Source of the DNA: Protonemura montana
Taxonomy: Eukaryota; Arthropoda; Insecta; Plecoptera; Nemouridae
DNA: 64,000 nt
Reading direction: 5' to 3'
NCBI GenBank assembly: GCA_947568835.1
Contig: OX387607.1
Span: 14,585,701-14,649,700 of the forward strand
In this document: positions 32,288-63,905 of the stretch, piece by piece
Position numbering within the stretch: position 1 is the stretch's first letter
How the letters are laid out: every line of letters begins with the position of its first letter
Made by a program: the position numbers and the translations under genes
Notes under the pieces: generated by a model
What the model saw: only the letters and a program-made list of their open reading frames with translations
The model's database searches: none
What the model was told of the DNA's origin: nothing

Positions 32288-32400
32288 CTTTTTAAACTGG
32301 GTTTTGAATGCTAGGTTACGAAAAAATAACTTTCCCAGCGTTTCGTTATTTGCATCTGTTACTATATCAAGATTGAAAGCAGTCCTTGATAAAGTCACAG

Positions 32401-32817
32401 GTGACAATCATACACATGTCCAGTTCTGTTTGGGAGAGAGATTGGAGAGAGAAAGTTAAGCAACACTGCGCTGTGTCAGGTATTGGATGGGTGACAATCA
32501 TACACATGACCAGTTCTGTTCGGGAGAGAGATTGGAGAGAGAAAGTTAAGCAACACTGCGCTGTGTCAGGTATTGGATGGGTGACAATCATACACATAAC
32601 CAGTTCTGTTCGGGAGAGAGATTGGAGAGAGAAAGTTAAGCAACACTGCGCTGTGTCAGGTATTGGATGGGTGACAATCATACACATAACCAGTTCTGTT
32701 CGGGAGAGAGATTGGAGAGAGAAAGTTAAGCAACACTGCGCTTTGTCAGGTATTGGATGGGTGACAATCATACACATAACCAGTTCTGTTCGGGAGAGAG
32801 GTTGGAGGGATGAAAGT
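32401..32817 (+). repeat. 90-bp tandem array of 5S-derived SINE heads
   Basis: About 4.5 units have an exact 90-bp period (caacactgcg at 32461, 32551, 32641 and 32731). Each contains gttaagcaacactgcg, then ggtattggatgggtgac, which match box A, the intermediate element and box C of the 5S rRNA internal promoter. The copies are nearly identical, so expansion or homogenisation is recent. Both strands are open over parts of the array because 90 is a multiple of three; no protein is implied. Confidence 0.9.
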
Positions 32818-33112
32818 TAATACAGCAACTTAATTTGTCTTGCTTATCAACCTCTCGACAGCATGGATTTGTGGAGGAATCCTGTTGTTCGAGTTGTACC
32901 GTCCTTCGGAAGGGACGTTAAGTAAGTGGTCCCCTTGCTCTTCGACAGGTGTAGGCTACCTGCCGGCACCGAGTTTCCTCTCCTCCTTTCTAGGCTATGT
33001 TAAGTTCATTATCATTCTTATCATCATCCACTCATTCACCGACGCCATTAGACCAGTGCTGCATGGCCAGATGTCAAAATAGTGCGTCGTTAAACACAAC
33101 AAACCAATCAAT
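32818..33112 (+). mobile_element. 5S-derived SINE body and 3' tail, downstream of the 90-bp array
   Basis: The body matches copies at 48342 and 63497: tacagcaactt, ctctcgacagcatggattt, gtaccgtccttcggaaggga and gacgccattagaccagtg, ending in tgcgtcgttaaacac and aaaccaatcaatc. It forms one element with the array before it. Confidence 0.85.
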
Positions 33113-35183: not shown

Positions 35184-36080
35184 CTACCGACAGCGAGTCC
35201 GGGCGAGTCGCTCAGACGCGCTGTCAGTAGATCCTCCTAACAGCTGAGTGGGGAGACCCATGAGTCGCTCTGACGCGCTGTCAGTAGATCCTCCTAACAG
35301 CGGAGTGGGGAGACCCATGAGTCGCTCAGACGCGCTGTCAGTAGATCCTCCTAACAGCGGAGTGGGGAGACCCATGAGTCGCTCAGACGCGCTGTCAGTA
35401 GATCCTCCTAACAGCGGAGTGGGGAGACACATGAATCGCTCAGACGCGCTGTCAGTAGATCCTCCTAACAGCTGAGTGGGGAGACCCATGAGTCGCTCTG
35501 ACGCGCTGTCAGTAGATCCTCCTAACAGCGGAGTGGGGAGACCCATGAGTCGCTCAGACGCGCTGTCAGTAGATCCTCCTAACAGCGGAGTGGGGAGACC
35601 CATGAATCGCTCAGACGCGCTGTCAGTAGATCCTCCTAACAGCGGAGTGGGGAGACACATGAATCGCTGAGACGCGCTGTCAGTAGATCCTCCTAACAGC
35701 GGAGTGGGGAGACCCATGAATCGCTCAGACGCGCTGTCAGTAGATCCTCCTAACAGCGGAGTGGGGAGACCCATGAGTCGCTCAGACGCGCGGTCAGTAG
35801 ATCCTCCTAACAGCGGAGTGGGGAGACCCATGAATCGCTCAGACGCGCTGTCAGTAGATCCTCCTAACAGCGGAGTGGGGAGACCCATGAATCGCTCAGA
35901 CGCGCTGTCAGTAGATCCTCCTAACAGCGGAGTGGGGAGATCCATGAATCGGCTTAAATTACGCCAAGTGGTTGATGTTTTGGTTGTGACACGAAGTGAA
36001 GGCTGCAGAAGTCGTATTTCCGTGGGAAGACAGCAATATAAAGTAATGCAAGAGATGGGGTAAGAACTCACAATCATCAT
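35184..36080 (-). CDS. Questionable 298-codon repeat ORF over the 57-bp satellite
   Basis: The minus strand from the ATG at 36080 reads about 50 unique residues and then 13 copies of a 19-residue unit (LPTPLLGGSTDSASERFMG) to a stop at 35184. No signal peptide, domain or homology is recognised. Variation among units is mostly conservative on this strand (F/L, G/C, P/Q), while the plus strand gains stops. That is weak support for a real secreted or structural repeat protein. The simpler view is a satellite whose unit length is divisible by three. Confidence 0.15.
   Translation of the reverse strand: MMIVSSYPISCITLYCCLPTEIRLLQPSLRVTTKTSTTWRNLSRFMDLPTPLLGGSTDSASERFMGLPTPLLGGSTDSASERFMGLPTPLLGGSTDRASERLMGLPTPLLGGSTDSASERFMGLPTPLLGGSTDSASQRFMCLPTPLLGGSTDSASERFMGLPTPLLGGSTDSASERLMGLPTPLLGGSTDSASERLMGLPTQLLGGSTDSASERFMCLPTPLLGGSTDSASERLMGLPTPLLGGSTDSASERLMGLPTPLLGGSTDSASERLMGLPTQLLGGSTDSASERLARTRCR
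35207..35952. repeat. 57-bp satellite, 13 units
   Basis: Units recur with exact 57-bp spacing from 35207 to 35948, each containing gctcagacgcgctgtcagta, gatcctcctaacagcgg and agtggggagacccatga. It is GC-rich compared with its surroundings and highly homogeneous. Because 57 is a multiple of three, frames stay open: the minus strand across the whole array (ORF 35184-36080), the plus strand in three pieces broken by TGA. Confidence 0.95.
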
Positions 36081-38222: not shown

Positions 38223-40616
38223 TTAACCCTGCCACTCCGAACAGCTGTCGCCGCCATCTTCGGTGTCAACCCCATCCACGCCGTCTAAATGCAGCTCAAA
38301 CTCAGAGCCGTCAAACGCCTCTGTCTCACACGCATCCTCCCAATCGTTATCATCTTCTCGGACCTTTCTGACATCGCCTTGCGCCTTTGAAAGCCTCCTT
38401 TGAAAACGAATTGGAATCTTGCTCTTAACTGGCATTTTCACTACGCTGTTAGCGTCGCTAGAGGAGCTGCTCGAATTTTCGGGGGACTTATTCTCATCGA
38501 AATTGCCGAACTCGTCGATGGAGGCGCCGGTGATCCACGAATGGGAAAGGATGGCGTCGACCGTGTCTCGTTTGTCGGCGTTCTTGTTCAGCATGCGGCC
38601 TGGAGTCGATCGGGCAAATTACGTGACATTATAAGGCATTCATTTACTGCGTGACCGAGTAATGTGTTTTATTTATAAGATCTATTTCGAAAGCTTTTCT
38701 TTTAAACTTAATTTTATTTCCTATCTTTGTGTTTTCTAGAATACCTATTTTATTTTTGCAAAATAGATTCTCCAATATTCCGATATATATTCCAAGAAAA
38801 TTGAATAGAATTTTTATATTTATATATGATCTTCTACCATCGCCTTGATCGTCAACCATAGTTTCCATAGATTCACCATTGATTCCACCGTAGAGTAGAA
38901 TGCTTGCTATTTGATTTTTGATCATTTACTTTATTTTTAAGTGCCACACCTTTCTTTCAAACTTTCCACACTCTTTTGATGGGTCTAATGTAAAAATCTG
39001 TCAAATTTAAGTACACAATGCCTTTGCACACAATACCTTTTGCATGCCTTTGCATTTAAGTAAAATGAACATGTAATGGACACCAAATTTATCATTTAAA
39101 CCACTGGTAAACTTTAAAAACTCACCAATAATATGTTTCGCGTTTCCGGAGATATTGGCCCAAGCCTCAGAGGACGTGTCGTATCTTGTCTCAACAATTA
39201 ACCTCTTGTCATCCTCTTCGTCGTGCCCGAGGAACGGTACCGACAGCGAGAGCATATAATAAAGTACGACTCCGGCAGCCCACACGTCCACCTTCTCACC
39301 GTACCCCTCCAGCTTCAACATTTCGGGGGCAACAAAAGCAGTCTCGCCGCAGATTTCAAACAACGGCTTGAACGACCGGCACGCAGAACCGAAATCGATA
39401 AGTTTAGCCGTCCGTCTGCCCGATGGCGTGGCTTTCACCATGATGTTAGTCGTTGAAACGCCTCTGTGGACGATCCTCAGGCAGTGCAAGTAGAACAGCG
39501 CTGACAAAATGTTACCCATTATCAGTTTAGCTTCGTCTTCTGAAATTTTGCCCTCGTCGTTCAGCAGTGCTTTTAAATCTTTGTCGAGTAGTTCAAAAAC
39601 TAGGTAGACCTCAGAAGAGGAGTCTGCATGGTGAAAGAGTCGAACGATGTTAGGGTGTCGAACGACTTTCATCATAGACAATTCCTGACTCAGTGATTCG
39701 AAAGTAACCTTGTTCTTGCGTGAGATTTTCATTGCATATCTCACGCCGTCGTCCTTCCGCATTTTCACCGAGCAACTGTAGATACTGGAGAACCGACCAG
39801 TACCAATCATCTTACCCAGATCGTATTTGACCCCAATCTGAGGCAACAATTTAGTGCTTTCAGGCTCTCTCTTCGGCGGCTCTTTAAGACTGATTTTATC
39901 TGAGTTTGGGGGCTTATTCAGTTGCATCACAGCCTGCACTTCATCTTCACTCAGCTGCAGATCTTTCGCCAAACAAATTGCCTCTTTACGGAACGCGAAG
40001 AAAATGAAATGGCGGCCAAAGATTTCGTCGAGACTGCACACTAGCTTCCCGTTGAGAGTATAAAGGCTGTGCATTGGCGCAGAATCAAAATTGATGACCT
40101 CGTTTATAACGGTCAAGACTGCTTCGAAGTCGTGAGCATTGCGACTGTTTAAAAGAACGCGTGCAATCTTCCTGGGTCGGTTTCCCATCCGCACAATAGT
40201 TATTTTCTTCGCGGCATACGATTCCCCTGCTTGCATGTAGTCTTTCGACAGTGATTTCAAAGAGCAAGACGAAAAAATCGACTCTCTTGAAATATATGAA
40301 GCTCTTTTCGGTGTTGATGGTGGTTGTGGTGGTGCCGTGCAATTGTAAGGTCCATCTCTGAACGTTTCTTGCAAGCAGGTTGCTACGTATGCCCCACTGT
40401 CTTGTATGCCAGCTAGTGAATTAACTTTGGTACCGTTTATATCGTACAAGGCTCGGACGCCTCCCATGTGAATAAACACGTTTTTCTTCAGTAAAGTGGT
40501 GACATCTTCCAAGAATGTCATAAAAGAGGTATATTTTTTGGTCTCGAACTTCATGACGACGCCTTTAAAATTGGCGTCTCCATTACGAAAAAGTTGTATT
40601 CTAATTACTCGGGGTC
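38223..40616 (-). CDS. DCLK-like: Doublecortin-like kinase (two DCX domains plus predicted pseudokinase domain), 3' two exons
   Basis: Coding exons are 40616-39126 and 38599-38223; together they give about 621 codons, and the first coding exon is missing. Residues below are numbered from the ATG at 40554; 20 in-frame residues precede it, including the RNGD of the first DCX domain, so that ATG is not the true start. DCX1 runs to about residue 68, DCX2 spans about 116-210, and the kinase domain starts near 243. DCX domains bind microtubules or tubulin, so a cytoskeletal role is expected from the family. The kinase keeps GTGRFS (251-256), the ATP lysine K276, the alpha-C glutamate E291, DFG (387-389) and APE (409-411). 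The catalytic loop reads HRGVSTTN (363-370): Asp becomes Gly at 365 and the catalytic-loop Lys is absent. Subdomain XI (MLNKNADKR, then LSHSW) is restored only by splicing, which supports the exon model. The C-terminal tail of about 100 residues is serine-rich, then acidic. No AATAAA is visible within about 180 bp of the stop. Family assignment is firm; orthology to a particular DCLK is not. Confidence 0.9.
38600..39125 (-). other. Intron of the DCLK-like gene (phase 1)
   Basis: On the minus strand the donor is ATTATTG|GTGAGT (last exon base 39126) and the acceptor is CTCCAG|GC (first exon base 38599). Splicing joins ATT ATT G to GC CGC ATG, giving IIGRMLNK, the expected kinase subdomain XI sequence. 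Reading through the intron instead gives an unrelated tail and a stop at 39007. The intron is AT-rich and contains no recognisable element. Confidence 0.85.
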
Positions 40617-40665: not shown

Positions 40666-43546
40666 TGACGTCGGTTCAATTTGACAGACGTCAGATTACA
40701 GAAGCAAGGCTAACAGAAAAAGTAAAAAAGTAGTGCACTAACTTGATTTTCCATGAATTTTTACACTCGAGTTCAACATGTTTAATGCTTTAAGTCATAC
40801 GCTTTTTCATCTTTTCAGGTAATTTTTATGAAATAACTGGATTTATCTTAATGTGGTGTAAAACCAATATTCTCCAGCACCCACGTATAAAATAAGACTG
40901 TCTAGTATCCTTGCAAAGCATGGTGGATACGACATCAAAATTGTACTCAATAAGGCCATGGTTCATCCAGAGCCGGATAGAATTTCCTCGTGAATGTAAA
41001 ACTAGGTAAATGCAAACGAGTTTCCGAACGATTCTGAACGAAGCAGAGAAAACCCCGAGCTGCCGAACGAGAAACAAAATGGACATACAATCAAATTACG
41101 GAGATCATAACGCCGTTATCCAGGGTTCGGAAGGGTCAACACGTCACGGATGCAAAGGCTACAGCCAATGGCTTCTTGTGGCAATAGAAGACGAATATTT
41201 CCTGCGTCCGGGATTTAAAGACGGCTTTGAGCAAAAAAAAAAAACCTTTGCTCATATTTTCGTTCGCCCCAGGGAAATTTCAGATCGTCTTACTCTGTGC
41301 TAGGTTTCAAATCCGTGTTTGGTTTGAAGAATAAGAATTTTATTTACAAGCCAAATACCAGAATCAGGATTTCTTGTCTTTAGAATGTGCCAATTTTGAT
41401 TTTCACTCAATTTTACTGACTGATTTCATCGTTTCCATTTTGAAAAAGCATGCAAATTTGCAAACACGCCCACGCCCATCATCTCCATTCCCTTGGCTAT
41501 ATGAGGTAAATTATAAAGCAATTAATTTCCAGCAGATTGCATTTTACGCTTTATAGTCCTGTAGCACCAACGGCGAGTCGCCGACCTATCACGCTAGACA
41601 CAAATTCGTTAAGCTAAACATGCGAAAATAATCCATTTATTCGCAAACTCTGAGATTGCCTTGATTTGATATTAACTACGTTGATTTTTTTTTATGTTTA
41701 AACTGAAATTGGCTTTGAAAATGGCGCTGTCGTGTACGTAGCTTTTAATCTATACGCATGCTTTGACAACAAATTACTCGTTTTTTTTTTTAATTAGAGA
41801 GGGCGTTTTTTTGAGTTTCAGCTAATCGATTCTATCAAAAACAGTATGTGCCCGATATGCTCATTATTTTACTTACCTACTCCTCTACATTTTTGTCCGC
41901 ATATACAAGAATTACTTAAAAAATGAAGGTAATATTAGATTTTTCAAAATGAAATATAAACTTTAAAAATATATAACCTTGGTGCAATAATAATTCCTGC
42001 ACTATCCTCGAAAAACAGCATGAATTCAAAATGCCAGATCCCTCGGAGTTGATAACCTAGCTATCCTGTCAATGCATATTTCACCGACAACGATTTCCCT
42101 CGGTGGTGACGCACCAACGGGACTGCCATTCACCGACAACGCTGCGCGAGACGCGTACAACCGAGCGGTGTTATTCGGGGAAAAGAAAGATTGGTTCGGA
42201 GCGCGGAGGGTTTAAACGATGCCATGAAATCTACATGCCAAAAGCCGAGTATGATTCGGTTACGCCAAAGAATCTTGTTGCTGATCTGTTATGTAAAATG
42301 CCACGAAATTAAGTTTCGTCCGCGCTTCGGGAATTATGAACACATTTTCAATTTGCTCCGTCGTGAAATAATGAGAACGCAGTCTTGTCGTGGCATGGCT
42401 GGCAAATTAATGAAGGAGAGCTTCGTTGATATTGAATTTCATTGCTGGATTTTTTTTTACGCTTCTCATTTTCGAGAGAAGCTGGGTAACTCGCTGTTTC
42501 ATTTTTTTTAATTTGTTATTTGTGGTTGAAATCTACTTCATCATTGAAATTCACTCCGATGAGTGTAGTAACTAGATTACAAAAAACACAAAAAAAAAAC
42601 ACAAAAAATCAACAAAAACGACACTAGACAATTTATGTTTTAAAATCGACTTCATTTGGGTAGAAAACTAAAGTTTTTTCATTAGAAACTTGTGCTTTCT
42701 TTGCAGCGATCTTAAGTGTAAGGTACTCAATCTATAAATATTACCTTAAATTAAATAGAATTACCTCATGTACGCAATTGCTAATCGTAAAGAAATTGAA
42801 CGAAAACTAACACAGTAAAAATATCTGGACATATTTAACCTAAAAAATAATGCGGTATATTGAATAACGCTAGCTTTTCTTGCCGTTTTATTGAACGGTT
42901 CTCGAGTCGCTCTGTAAAATCGAAATTCACTCAACTTTTAGCATAATTTCCCAGAATGAAGCCTTTTCGTCGAATTTCCTGCATTGAAAACGGGTCTCGG
43001 GAGGTTGGGGAGGTACACGACGACGACAAGGAGAAGTTCTAGCAATACTTCAATGCATCTAGGTTAATTGTATTCTTTGTCGTGCCGCGGGTTCCATGAC
43101 AATAAGCTCGGGCGTCGGGACGCTTTGATTAAAGAAATATCTCGACGCTGTCAAGTGTGAAAATATCGCCGCCATTTCAGATCGACGCTGCGTGCTGATT
43201 GGTGGATCGGGGGACAGTGCTGCTGGCAGTGTTGCTAAATTGTGTTTGATTTTGATTTCGGGTGAAAAATTGATGTTTTTTTTTTTTTTTAGGAAGAGCG
43301 TGGACATTTATGGTTATTGAAAAGTGAAGTTGAATAAAACAAGGAGCAAATAATAACTAAATTTTAAAACTAGAATGAAGCTTAAAACTTAAGACATTTA
43401 TAATTTTACTTTTCTATCAAACTTCTGCAAAGGTCGGCTTTGCGAATTTGTAAACATTCTAATTATTTTAGAAATTTTAACCGACCCTTTGTTGTTATTT
43501 TGAAAATCGCCTGTGGTCTTAGAAGGATTCACCAAAAGGGTAACCA
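40666..43546. other. Probable 5' intron or upstream region of the DCLK-like gene
   Basis: The missing first coding exon and promoter of the minus-strand gene must lie above 40665. I tested a minus-strand donor-like site near 43627 (CATTCCAG|GTAAGT) but its in-frame sequence is a low-complexity run without a usable ATG. A CpG-richer patch at 43075-43215 is a possible promoter, without direct support. Confidence 0.3.
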
Positions 43547-47182: not shown

Positions 47183-47696
47183 GGTGTAACGGCGCTCTGT
47201 TTTGACAACGTGCTCAATGAAGCTGGTCTACTGGCATCGGTGAATGATTGGATGATGATGAGGACGATAATAAACGTAACCTAGTCTAGAAGAGAGAGGA
47301 AATCAGGTGCTACCACGAAGCTTACTCCTGTCAAAAAGAACATAGGGTTTACGTCCCTTCCGAAAGATGGTACAACTCGAGCAGCTAGATTTATTCACAA
47401 TTCATATCCTAACTTTCATCCATCCAACCTCTCTCCCTAACAGAACTGGTCATGTGTATGATGGTCACCCATCCAATACCTGACCCAGCGCAGTGTTGCT
47501 TAACTTTCATCCCTCCAACCTCTCTCCCGAACAGAACTGGTCATGTGTACGATGGTCATCAATCCAACACCTGACCCAGCGCAGTGTTGCTTAACTTTCA
47601 TCTCTCCAACCTCTCTCCCGAACAGAACTGGTCATGTGTACGATGGTCATCAATCCAACACCTGACCCAGCGCAGTGTTGCTTAACTCTGGTAAAC
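47183..47696 (-). mobile_element. 5S-derived SINE, minus strand, with about three head units
   Basis: The 3' tail is at 47183-47260 (reverse complement of the gccattagacc...gcgtcgttaaac tail), a diverged body follows, and three head units at about 91-bp spacing occupy 47415-47696. The body is shortened relative to the copy at 48342. It directly follows the 3' end of a hammerhead-like element at 47156. Confidence 0.8.
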
Positions 47697-47837
47697 TCAC
47701 AAGAACCGTTGTTTCTAGCACGATAAACCGATTGTTTTCTTTTTTTAACTAAGAACACTCTTTAAAAACGATAAAAACATGGTCTTGCTGATAAAAACAA
47801 GATAGAAGCATGTATCTTTAAAAACAAAAGACCGAAC

Positions 47838-48008
47838 GGTTTGGCGTGTTGGCTACACTGGTCCTCGTGAGATCACTGAAGTTAAGCAACACTGCGTTGG
47901 GTCAGTTATTGGATGGGTGACCATCATACACATGACCAGTTCTGTTCGGAAGAGAGGTTGGGATGAAAGTTAAGGAACACTACATTGAGTCAGGTATTGG
48001 ATGGGTGA
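47838..48008 (+). mobile_element. 5S-derived SINE head, truncated copy
   Basis: It starts with cgaacggtttggcgtgttgg as the copy at 63497 does, then ggtcctcgtgagatcactga and gttaagcaacactgcg, closely following 5S rRNA. One extra head unit follows, and the copy stops at ggatgggtgac without body or tail. Confidence 0.82.
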
Positions 48009-56961: not shown

Positions 56962-58268
56962 AAACATCGGTTCTTTTGTGGTCTCAGAAGTTTAACAACA
57001 CTGCGCTGGTATTGGATGGGTGACCATCATACACATGACCAGTTCTGTTCGGGAGAGAGGTTGGAGGGATGAAAGTTAAGCAACACTGCGCTGGGTCAGG
57101 TATTGTATGGGTGACCATCATACACATGACCAGTTCTGTTCGGGAGAGAGGTTGGAGGGATGAAAGTTAAGCAACACTGCGCTGGGTCAGGTATTAGATG
57201 GGTGACCATCGTACACATGACCAGTTCTGTTCGGGAGAGAGGTTGGAGGGATGAAAGTTAAGCAACACTGCGCTGGGTCAGGTATTGTATGGGTGACCAT
57301 CATACACATGACCAGTTCTGTTCGGGAGAGAGGTTGGAGGGATGAAAGTTGAGCAACACTGCGCTGGGTCAGGTATTAGATGGGTGACCATCGTACACAT
57401 GACCAGTTCTGTTCGGGAGAGAGGTTGGAGGGATGAAAGTTAAGCAACAATGCGCTGGGTCAGGTATTGGATGGGTGACCATCATACCCATGACCAGTTC
57501 TGTTCGGGAGAGAGGTTGGAGGGATGAAAGTTAAGCAACGCTGCGCTGGGTCAGGTATTGGATGAGTGACCATCATACACATGACCAGTTCTGTTCGGGA
57601 GAGAGGTTGGAGGGATGAAAGTTGAGCAACACTGCGCTGGGTCAGGTATCGGATGGGTGACCATCGTACACATGACCAGTTCTGTTCGGGAGAGAGGTTG
57701 GAGGGATAAAAGTTAAGCAACACTGCGCTGGGTCAGGTATTAGATGGGTGACCATCGTACACATGACCAGTTCTGTTCGGGAGAGAGGTTGGAGGGATGA
57801 AAGTTGAGCAACACTGCGCTGGGTCAGGTATTAGATGGGTGACCATCATACACATGACCAGTTCTGTTCGGGAGAGAGGTTGGAGGGATGAAAGTTGAGC
57901 AACACTGCGCTGGGTCAGGTATCGGATGGGTGACCATCGTACACATGACCAGTTCTGTTCGGGAGAGAGGTTGGAGGGATGAAAGTTGAGCAACACTGCG
58001 CTGGGTCAGGTATTAGATGGGTGACCATCATACACATGACCAGTTCTGTTTGGGAGAGAGGTTGGAGGGATGAAAGTTGAGCAAGACTGCGCTGGGTCAG
58101 GTATTGGATGGGTGACCATCATACACATGATCAGTTCTGTTCGGGAGAGAGGTTGGAGGGATGAAAGTTAAGCAATACTGTGCTGGGTCAGGTATTGGAT
58201 GGGTGACTATCATACACATGATCAGTTTTGTTCTGGAGAGAGGTTGGAGGGATGAAAGTTGAGCAACA
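56962..58268 (+). repeat. 91-bp tandem array, 14 units of the 5S-SINE head
   Basis: It opens with catcggttct, as in 5S rRNA. The ggatgggtgacc box recurs at exactly 91-bp spacing from 57018 to 58201 (13 intervals). Each unit holds the 5S internal promoter-like part plus a linker (catacacatgaccagttctg, then ggttggagggatgaaag). Variants alternate (ttaagc/ttgagc, tattgg/tattag/tatcgg), which suggests higher-order duplication. No SINE body or tail follows the array. Minus-strand frames inside it are repeat artefacts. Confidence 0.93.
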
Positions 58269-58844
58269 CCGCACTTGTAATTCTATGCGTGCTGCGATAC
58301 ATAGAAAGTATTCCCTCTCATTAATTTGTAAGCTTAATAGGCTCCAGCTTAATCGATGGTCGATTATCATTAATTAGCCCGATACCTTTTATTTACTCTA
58401 TCTGAGTGTCGATTTATACTGAAAACGCACGCGAACGCCTCGTTTTGTAGGCAATAAAACAATCCAGTCTGCAACACGTGCTATTGCTGAGTGGGTTTTC
58501 CGATTCGATTTCAAATCACTCAAATTTTGGCCGTTAACGAGTGGTGATAAAATCGAAAATATTTTGCAGGTTTATTGTAGGTTCATTGTGCTCGATTGAT
58601 GTTTTAATTTTTGCTTTTTTTTCAAGTTGTTTGGGTCTAAAGATGATGTATGTTTTACGATGAAAGCTCTTTTGTGAAGGGTTTTTTTAGATTTAGTTTT
58701 AGATTCAAAACCAATTGATATTAATGGTATTATGGTTTATAATGATATTATAATATTGTTTATATATTGTAATATACATAATATTGTATATAATATTGTC
58801 GAAATTGGTCTTTCGACTAACTAAAAAATCGTCTCGACTTCCAA

Positions 58845-63496: not shown

Positions 63497-63905
63497 ACCG
63501 AACGGTTTGGCGTGTTGGGAATATTGGTTCTCATGAGATCACCAAAGTTAAGCAACACTGCGCTGGGTCAGGTATTGGATGGATGACCATCATTCACATG
63601 ACCAGTACTGTTTGGGAGAGAGGTTGGAGGGATGAAAGTTAGTACAGCAACTTCATTCGCCTCGCTTATCAACCTCTCGACAGCATGGATTTGGAGGAAT
63701 CCTGCTGTTCGAGTTGTACCGTCCTTCGGAAGGGACGCTGAGTCGGTGGACCCCTTGGTGCTCTTCGACAGGAGTAGGCTACGTGCCGGCACCGGGTTTT
63801 CCCTCCTCCCTTCTAGGCTAGGTTAGGTTCATCATCATTTGCTTCTTCACCGACGCTATTTGACCATTGCCACATGGCCAGATGTCAAAACAGTGCGTCG
63901 TTCAA
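63497..63905 (+). mobile_element. 5S-derived SINE, near full length
   Basis: The head (cgaacggtttggcgtgttgg, ctcatgagatcaccaaag, ttaagcaacactgcgctggg) is followed by the linker ccagtactgtttgggagaga, the body (ctctcgacagcatggattt, gtaccgtccttcggaaggga) and a tail ending cagtgcgtcgtt. The terminal aaacacc is replaced by caatctc, so the last bases are diverged or truncated. Confidence 0.88.

Follow-up and report, generated by a model that had tools for sequence, protein, structure and literature searches.

Proteins of the DCLK family, among them DCLK1 and DCLK2, ZYG-8 of C. elegans and CG17528 of Drosophila, are built from DCX domains, of which DCLK1 and DCLK2 have two, followed by a CAMK-type kinase domain, and this is also the architecture of the gene described here. 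In DCLK1 the Asp of the HRD motif is D511 (PMC10602587, in its available portion), and D511N is an established kinase-dead mutant that is non-phosphorylated. According to the available portions of the report, D511N matches the wild type in microtubule binding at 25 nM and surpasses it at low concentration, hyperphosphorylated DCLK1 has largely lost its microtubule binding, and what DCLK1 kinase activity does physiologically is described as elusive (PMC8352597). A DCLK gene that was kept after a natural loss of this Asp would be a natural test of whether the DCX-plus-kinase architecture is useful without catalysis. In invertebrates two DCLK paralogues have been named, one of them an orthologue of DCLK3, which mostly has a single DCX domain; the part of that study available makes no mention of a lost HRD Asp in the protostome DCLK3 branch (PMC10602587). 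For the fly, CG10177 is given as a second doublecortin-like kinase homologue in the accessible text of PMC2667480.

What is already known of kinases that have lost this residue? By sequence, a pseudokinase is defined as a kinase domain from which at least one of the VAIK Lys, the HRD Asp and the DFG Asp is absent, and HER3, which is without Asp166, is described in the same partly available source as binding ATP tightly (PMC4718504). Both an HRG catalytic loop, in the human pseudokinase EphA10 (HRGLAARH), and a CAMK-like HRN pseudokinase, human PSKH2 (HRNLKPEN), are already on record in the accessible part of PMC7586955. EphA10, although like the present gene in its HRG, is a member of the receptor tyrosine kinase family and is without the VAIK Lys and the DFG Asp, whereas PSKH2 has kept the Gly loop, Lys, helix C Glu and DFG, as here, but unlike here has also kept Lys168 (PMC7586955). 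In the openly licensed papers searched, no DCLK pseudokinase was found described. PSKH2 is not known to have DCX domains.

The gene lies in a window of 64,000 nucleotides, the whole stretch of DNA that was analysed, where one spliced open frame on the minus strand holds two DCX domains and a DCLK-type kinase domain. The genome is that of an arthropod, probably an insect, its mitochondrial COX1 having the look of an arthropod, probably a hexapod, sequence. A preliminary description of this DNA had predicted a pseudokinase fused to two DCX domains, with an open frame and a correct splice junction, and this was borne out: the AG and GT ends and the phase fit, and in the main exon Pfam reports DCX in two stretches (E 1.4e-20) and a Pkinase match (E 1.1e-48), within which the HRD Asp is Gly. 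The features are listed below in the direction of transcription; residue numbers are counted from the main exon (for example Glu424), and PKA residue numbers are used for the corresponding kinase positions of the window protein.

40743..40779, minus strand: candidate first coding exon MLNSSVKIHGKS with a weak donor, from a scan for donors and ATG codons; the nearest of three candidates in 14 kb
39126..40616, minus strand: main coding exon with DCX1, DCX2 and most of the kinase domain; open frame, preceded by AG and followed by GT, with Pfam DCX in two stretches and Pkinase
40357..40614, minus strand: DCX1 domain (Pfam, codon model, match to human doublecortin)
39988..40209, minus strand: DCX2 domain (DCX-family search of the genome, codon model, match to human doublecortin)
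39126..39831, minus strand: kinase domain, main-exon part (Pfam, AlphaFold2 pLDDT mostly >90, Foldseek to DCLK1)
39727..39729, minus strand: beta-3 Lys (PKA Lys72), kept (residue alignment)
39682..39684, minus strand: helix C Glu (PKA Glu91), kept (residue alignment)
39445..39468, minus strand: catalytic loop HRGVSTTN, with Gly for the catalytic Asp, GGC at 39462-39460
39388..39396, minus strand: DFG motif, kept (residue alignment)
39343..39345, minus strand: Glu424 (GAG), at the P+1-loop position of Thr201 (alignments)
38600..39125, minus strand: phase-1 intron of 526 bases with GT/AG ends, at a codon position common to a divergent copy and without an intron in the ordinary DCLK gene (gene models compared)
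38223..38599, minus strand: last exon, with the end of the kinase domain and then the C-terminal tail to TAA; acceptor AG, phase matching the main exon, RMLNKNADKR aligning with kinase relatives
38532..38599, minus strand: kinase domain, last-exon part (gene-model comparison, alignment)
38226..38360, minus strand: acidic C-terminal tail segment of 45 residues, of which 18 are D/E and 1 is K/R (sequence)

The main exon is without an ATG upstream of DCX1, and the product minus its first exon comes to 621 residues plus stop, in the order DCX1, linker, DCX2, linker, kinase domain and a 102-residue tail. The tail consists of a basic stretch with an RRLS site, followed by the acidic segment; it is a guess on our part that the RRLS site may be regulated by another kinase.

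By descent the gene belongs to the DCLK family. Pfam places two DCX domains N-terminal to the kinase domain in one frame, and DCLK1 is the closest solved kinase by both sequence and fold: it comes first in a phmmer search at E 7.5e-42, with DAPK1 the next family at 3.7e-32, and DCLK1 kinase domains fill ranks 1-14 of a Foldseek search against the PDB (best E 4.1e-24, 35-37% identity), with DAPK and CaMKII coming next. The AlphaFold2 model behind this search, made from an input alignment of 17 rows that all come from the same genome and include five exon pieces of the ordinary DCLK gene, has pLDDT mostly >90 in the kinase domain, low confidence in the DCX domains and a whole-protein mean of 70.6. 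The DCX part matches human doublecortin across both domains (E 1.4e-28), and both are intact, with the RNGD, KG and PRK stretches, picked out by inspection of the alignment, in common with human DCX. When viral and prokaryote contigs were scanned with the main exon, no relative turned up, as one would expect of an animal gene.

The distinguishing feature of the locus is found in the catalytic centre. Human DCLK1 and the ordinary DCLK gene of the same genome read HRDIKPEN and have Thr at 201, whereas the window gene reads HRGVSTTN with Glu at 201 and is thereby without the HRDxKPEN loop and the P+1 Thr typical of active DCLK kinases. Relative to both of these proteins Asp166 is changed to Gly, Lys168 to Ser, Pro169 to Thr, Glu170 to Thr and Thr201 to Glu. 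These are among the 9 of 29 inspected kinase positions that differ from ordinary DCLK, the remaining four being Val57 to Ile, a Glu-to-Asp change ahead of the GGDL stretch, Pro202 to Thr and position 206, which is Ala in the window gene and human DCLK1 and Ser in the ordinary gene. The other 20 positions are kept (G50, G52, A70, K72, E91, H158, H164, R165, N171, D184, F185, G186, C199, G200, P207, E208, D220, W222, G225 and R280). As the residue table has it, the losses thus fall mainly in the catalytic loop and the P+1 loop and leave the nucleotide site and the scaffold intact, a grouping by loop that was drawn up post hoc, once the table was known. Elsewhere in the alignment the Asp166 column is D in all 12 other kinase rows, and at Thr201 each of the 11 rows besides the window gene (E) and the divergent copy (F) has T or S; the rows comprise ordinary DCLK, the divergent copy and kinases from 10 of 27 further loci (L010-L036), and both counts omit a pair of DCX fragments from the ordinary gene, which had been aligned within the kinase columns.

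Much of this had been anticipated from the sequence, in that HRGVSTTN was said to have lost the catalytic Asp and the loop Lys with K276, E291, Asn370, DFG and APE all kept. The loop was indeed found at 39468-39445 on the minus strand with GGC as its third codon (39462-39460), the alignment has Gly at 166 and Ser at 168, and the residue alignment confirms the retained positions, the first three of which are 296, 311 and 390 in main-exon numbering. What goes beyond that account is the loss of Thr201 and the finding that a sister copy is also without Lys168 and Thr201. With Gly for the HRD Asp in a fold predicted with pLDDT mostly >90, the window kinase fits the sequence definition of a pseudokinase. 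It resembles the laboratory mutant D511N of DCLK1 in that the same catalytic Asp is lost and the tandem DCX domains are kept (PMC8352597, available portion), but here the change is natural and the rest of the catalytic loop is altered too.

Does the genome hold a conventional counterpart? The preliminary description had proposed a search for an HRD-containing paralogue, and in the 258 Mb and 34 contigs searched two were found (HRDIKPEN and HRDVCPTN). Exons were read singly, so that counts are lower bounds, and on this basis the DCX-family search gave at least 6 matches at 4 places. At three of these four the protein search yields DCX along with a kinase, namely at the window gene, for which the genome search gives one locus, at the ordinary DCLK and at the divergent copy; the fourth, on contig C14 (L002), has one DCX exon, and the protein search lists no match at this place. 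The ordinary DCLK gene, on contig C2, has a gene model assembled from 8 exons with HRDIKPEN, DFG and CGTPTYVSPE. The divergent copy (L039) lies on the same contig as the window gene, 4.8 Mb off, and has HRDVCPTN, DFN, GGFLLYMAPE and Phe at 201. In this copy (L039 5696-7582, minus strand) the HRD Asp is kept, but SGSGF stands for GxGxF, DFN for DFG and Phe for Thr201, and from these residues its own kinase activity is also doubtful.

The window gene and the divergent copy have a number of characters in common. In both a single large exon holds DCX1, DCX2 and most of the kinase domain, unlike in the ordinary gene, and in both a phase-1 intron interrupts the same kinase codon (HII[G]RML in the window gene, ILA[D]LML in the copy), where the ordinary gene has no intron but seven others across its assembled stretch. 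Both also have one extra DCX1 residue (HMGG and HIGG, respectively) compared with the ordinary gene and human DCX, and both have Val at 167 and Thr at 170. An 11-row kinase tree groups the two with support of 93/96, which falls just short of the 95/80 mark of the tree tool, within a DCLK clade supported at 96/98; the branches are long, at 1.05 changes per column for the window gene and 1.63 for the divergent copy, which the tool flags as a long branch. When the DCX domains are added in a four-row tree, the ordinary gene joins the human row (96/97). Because long branches may attract each other, the common intron is firmer evidence than the tree. Taken with the common single exon, the extra residue and the tree grouping, it makes the pair look like an old intron-poor DCLK duplicate that later split in two. 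A 5' intron common to both copies was also considered and was dropped, because at that place the divergent copy offers an ATG in frame with no splicing involved. The two have since come to differ in their losses: Lys168 and Thr201 are changed in each, the loss of Asp166 is confined to the window gene, and that of the GxG loop and of the DFG Gly to the divergent copy, whose tail, moreover, is basic and not acidic. These different subsets hint at an order, in which the changes common to both stand apart from the loss of Asp166 seen here only. The pair may belong to the protostome DCLK3 branch, and Drosophila CG10177 may be its counterpart.

How might a protein of this kind work? The explanation we favour, and hold to be likely, is that the window gene encodes a DCLK-derived pseudokinase whose DCX tandem is microtubule-bound and whose kinase domain is a nucleotide-binding docking module, without the autophosphorylation switch. 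Judged from its residues, kinase activity appears to have been lost: Asp166, Lys168 and Thr201, which would place the substrate hydroxyl and transfer the phosphate, are gone, and the fold and the nucleotide site stay. As Lys72, Asn171 and Asp184 are kept, nucleotide binding is still suggested, as in HER3, and the protein is predicted to bind ATP. By analogy with its relatives the tandem DCX domains would anchor it to microtubules, with the kinase domain acting as the docking module. Since it would be unable to autophosphorylate, we propose that it would escape the switch that frees active DCLK1 from microtubules, and that it would behave as a constitutively bound DCLK. The product of the window gene is thus probably a microtubule-bound scaffold rather than an enzyme.

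One difficulty for this explanation is HER3, in which the HRD Asp is absent and which is yet reported to be active in vitro (PMC4718504, in the portion available). Could the window kinase similarly have residual, slow phosphate transfer, sufficient for autophosphorylation when the protein is concentrated on microtubules? The retention of Lys72, Glu91, Asn171 and Asp184 would allow for it, and the same source reports not only the activity of HER3 but also a low activity of the JH2 domain of JAK2 (PMC4718504). We consider it unlikely here, given that DCLK1 D511N, from what is available of that report, is non-phosphorylated (PMC8352597), and that in the window gene Lys168 and Thr201 are lost as well.

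A further question is whether the gene has any function at all or is a pseudogene or recently disabled copy. Several observations would be compatible with a dead gene, including the branch of 1.05 changes per column, which is consistent with relaxed constraint, and a 5' exon that is only a candidate. Set against these are the sound splice sites, the intron common to the divergent copy, the clustering of the losses in the catalytic and P+1 loops and the length of the frame, 621 codons that are still open although identity to ordinary DCLK is down to about 38-40%. When the ordinary DCLK coding sequence was allowed to drift neutrally to 39% identity, copies carried about 18 stops each and none of 1000 runs remained open; with the kinase part by itself, none of 200 runs was open at any level from 0.2 substitutions per site upwards, and 6.5% were at 0.1. 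GC3 is likewise raised, at 0.548 versus 0.31 in the intron and 0.36-0.37 in two flanks, in a window with a GC content of 37.6% overall. The open frame and the raised GC3 argue for constraint through most of the history of the gene, and long-term neutral drift is excluded. The statement in the preliminary description that this is not simple gene decay therefore holds for long-term decay, but not for a recent loss of function, after which the frame would stay open: of 1000 runs, 55 were still open at 0.05 substitutions per site and 2 at 0.1, so that a recent loss is invisible to the simulation. In a three-gene codon model, omega = 1 is rejected for the window branch in the kinase domain (2dlnL 9.4, 249 codons) and over all 487 codons (11.4), but not in DCX1 (2.3) or DCX2 (0.2) taken alone, which is a point on the side of a dead gene; these values come from three genes of one genome and from a saturated model, every fit of which has one or more branches at the upper bound, and they lend constraint weak support. 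On balance, a functionless copy strikes us as rather improbable.

In PKA, Thr201 contacts Asp166 and Lys168, and its replacement by Glu raises the possibility of an active but atypical kinase in which this Glu fills the gap left by the change of Asp166 to Gly as a relocated catalytic carboxylate, with a new layout of the active site. Such a relocation has a parallel of sorts in the WNK kinases, for which a catalytic lysine supplied from another position is reported in the available text of PMC4718504. Glu at 201 is found in the window gene alone, the 11 rows that do not belong to the divergent pair all having T or S; it coincides with Gly166 and Ser168, which would leave space for it, and the ATP and metal residues are kept. 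Nevertheless, Lys168 is lost as well, no precedent for a relocated carboxylate was found in the openly licensed papers searched, and in the sister copy Phe stands at 201 beside a kept Asp166, from which it follows that position 201 drifts in this lineage without compensation. An active enzyme of this design is accordingly very improbable. An assembly or base error at the Asp codon is scarcely credible, for although GGC is one transition away from GAC, the genome search gives just one locus for the gene and a single-base error is unable to explain the finding, because K168S, P169T, E170T and T201E, in the same functional set, are also changed.

The window and the genome have some other features, unconnected with the gene. 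Tandem arrays with a unit of 90-91 bases occur in the window at 57008-58269, 47410-47687 and 32400-32820, and a 301-base piece of the first has at least 144 matches in the genome, with 94-100% identity among the full-query matches. By eye the unit resembles a portion of 5S rRNA, but at E 0.1 the largest array has no hit in Rfam. Full-length 5S rRNA-like matches occur twice in the window, at 47831-47951 and 63498-63616 (52.5 and 54.6 bits versus a gathering score of 38), the former about 140 bases from a 91-base array. On a large contig designated C4, a COX1 stretch (L041, C4:5760925-5762262) scores the same as L042 on C34, which is apparently the mitochondrial genome, and L041 would seem to be either mitochondrial DNA recently copied into the nucleus or the product of an assembly join. 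Finally, a 57-base tandem repeat at 35208-35951 of the window (13 copies, 96%) has open frames on both strands, which is to be expected because its period is a multiple of three.
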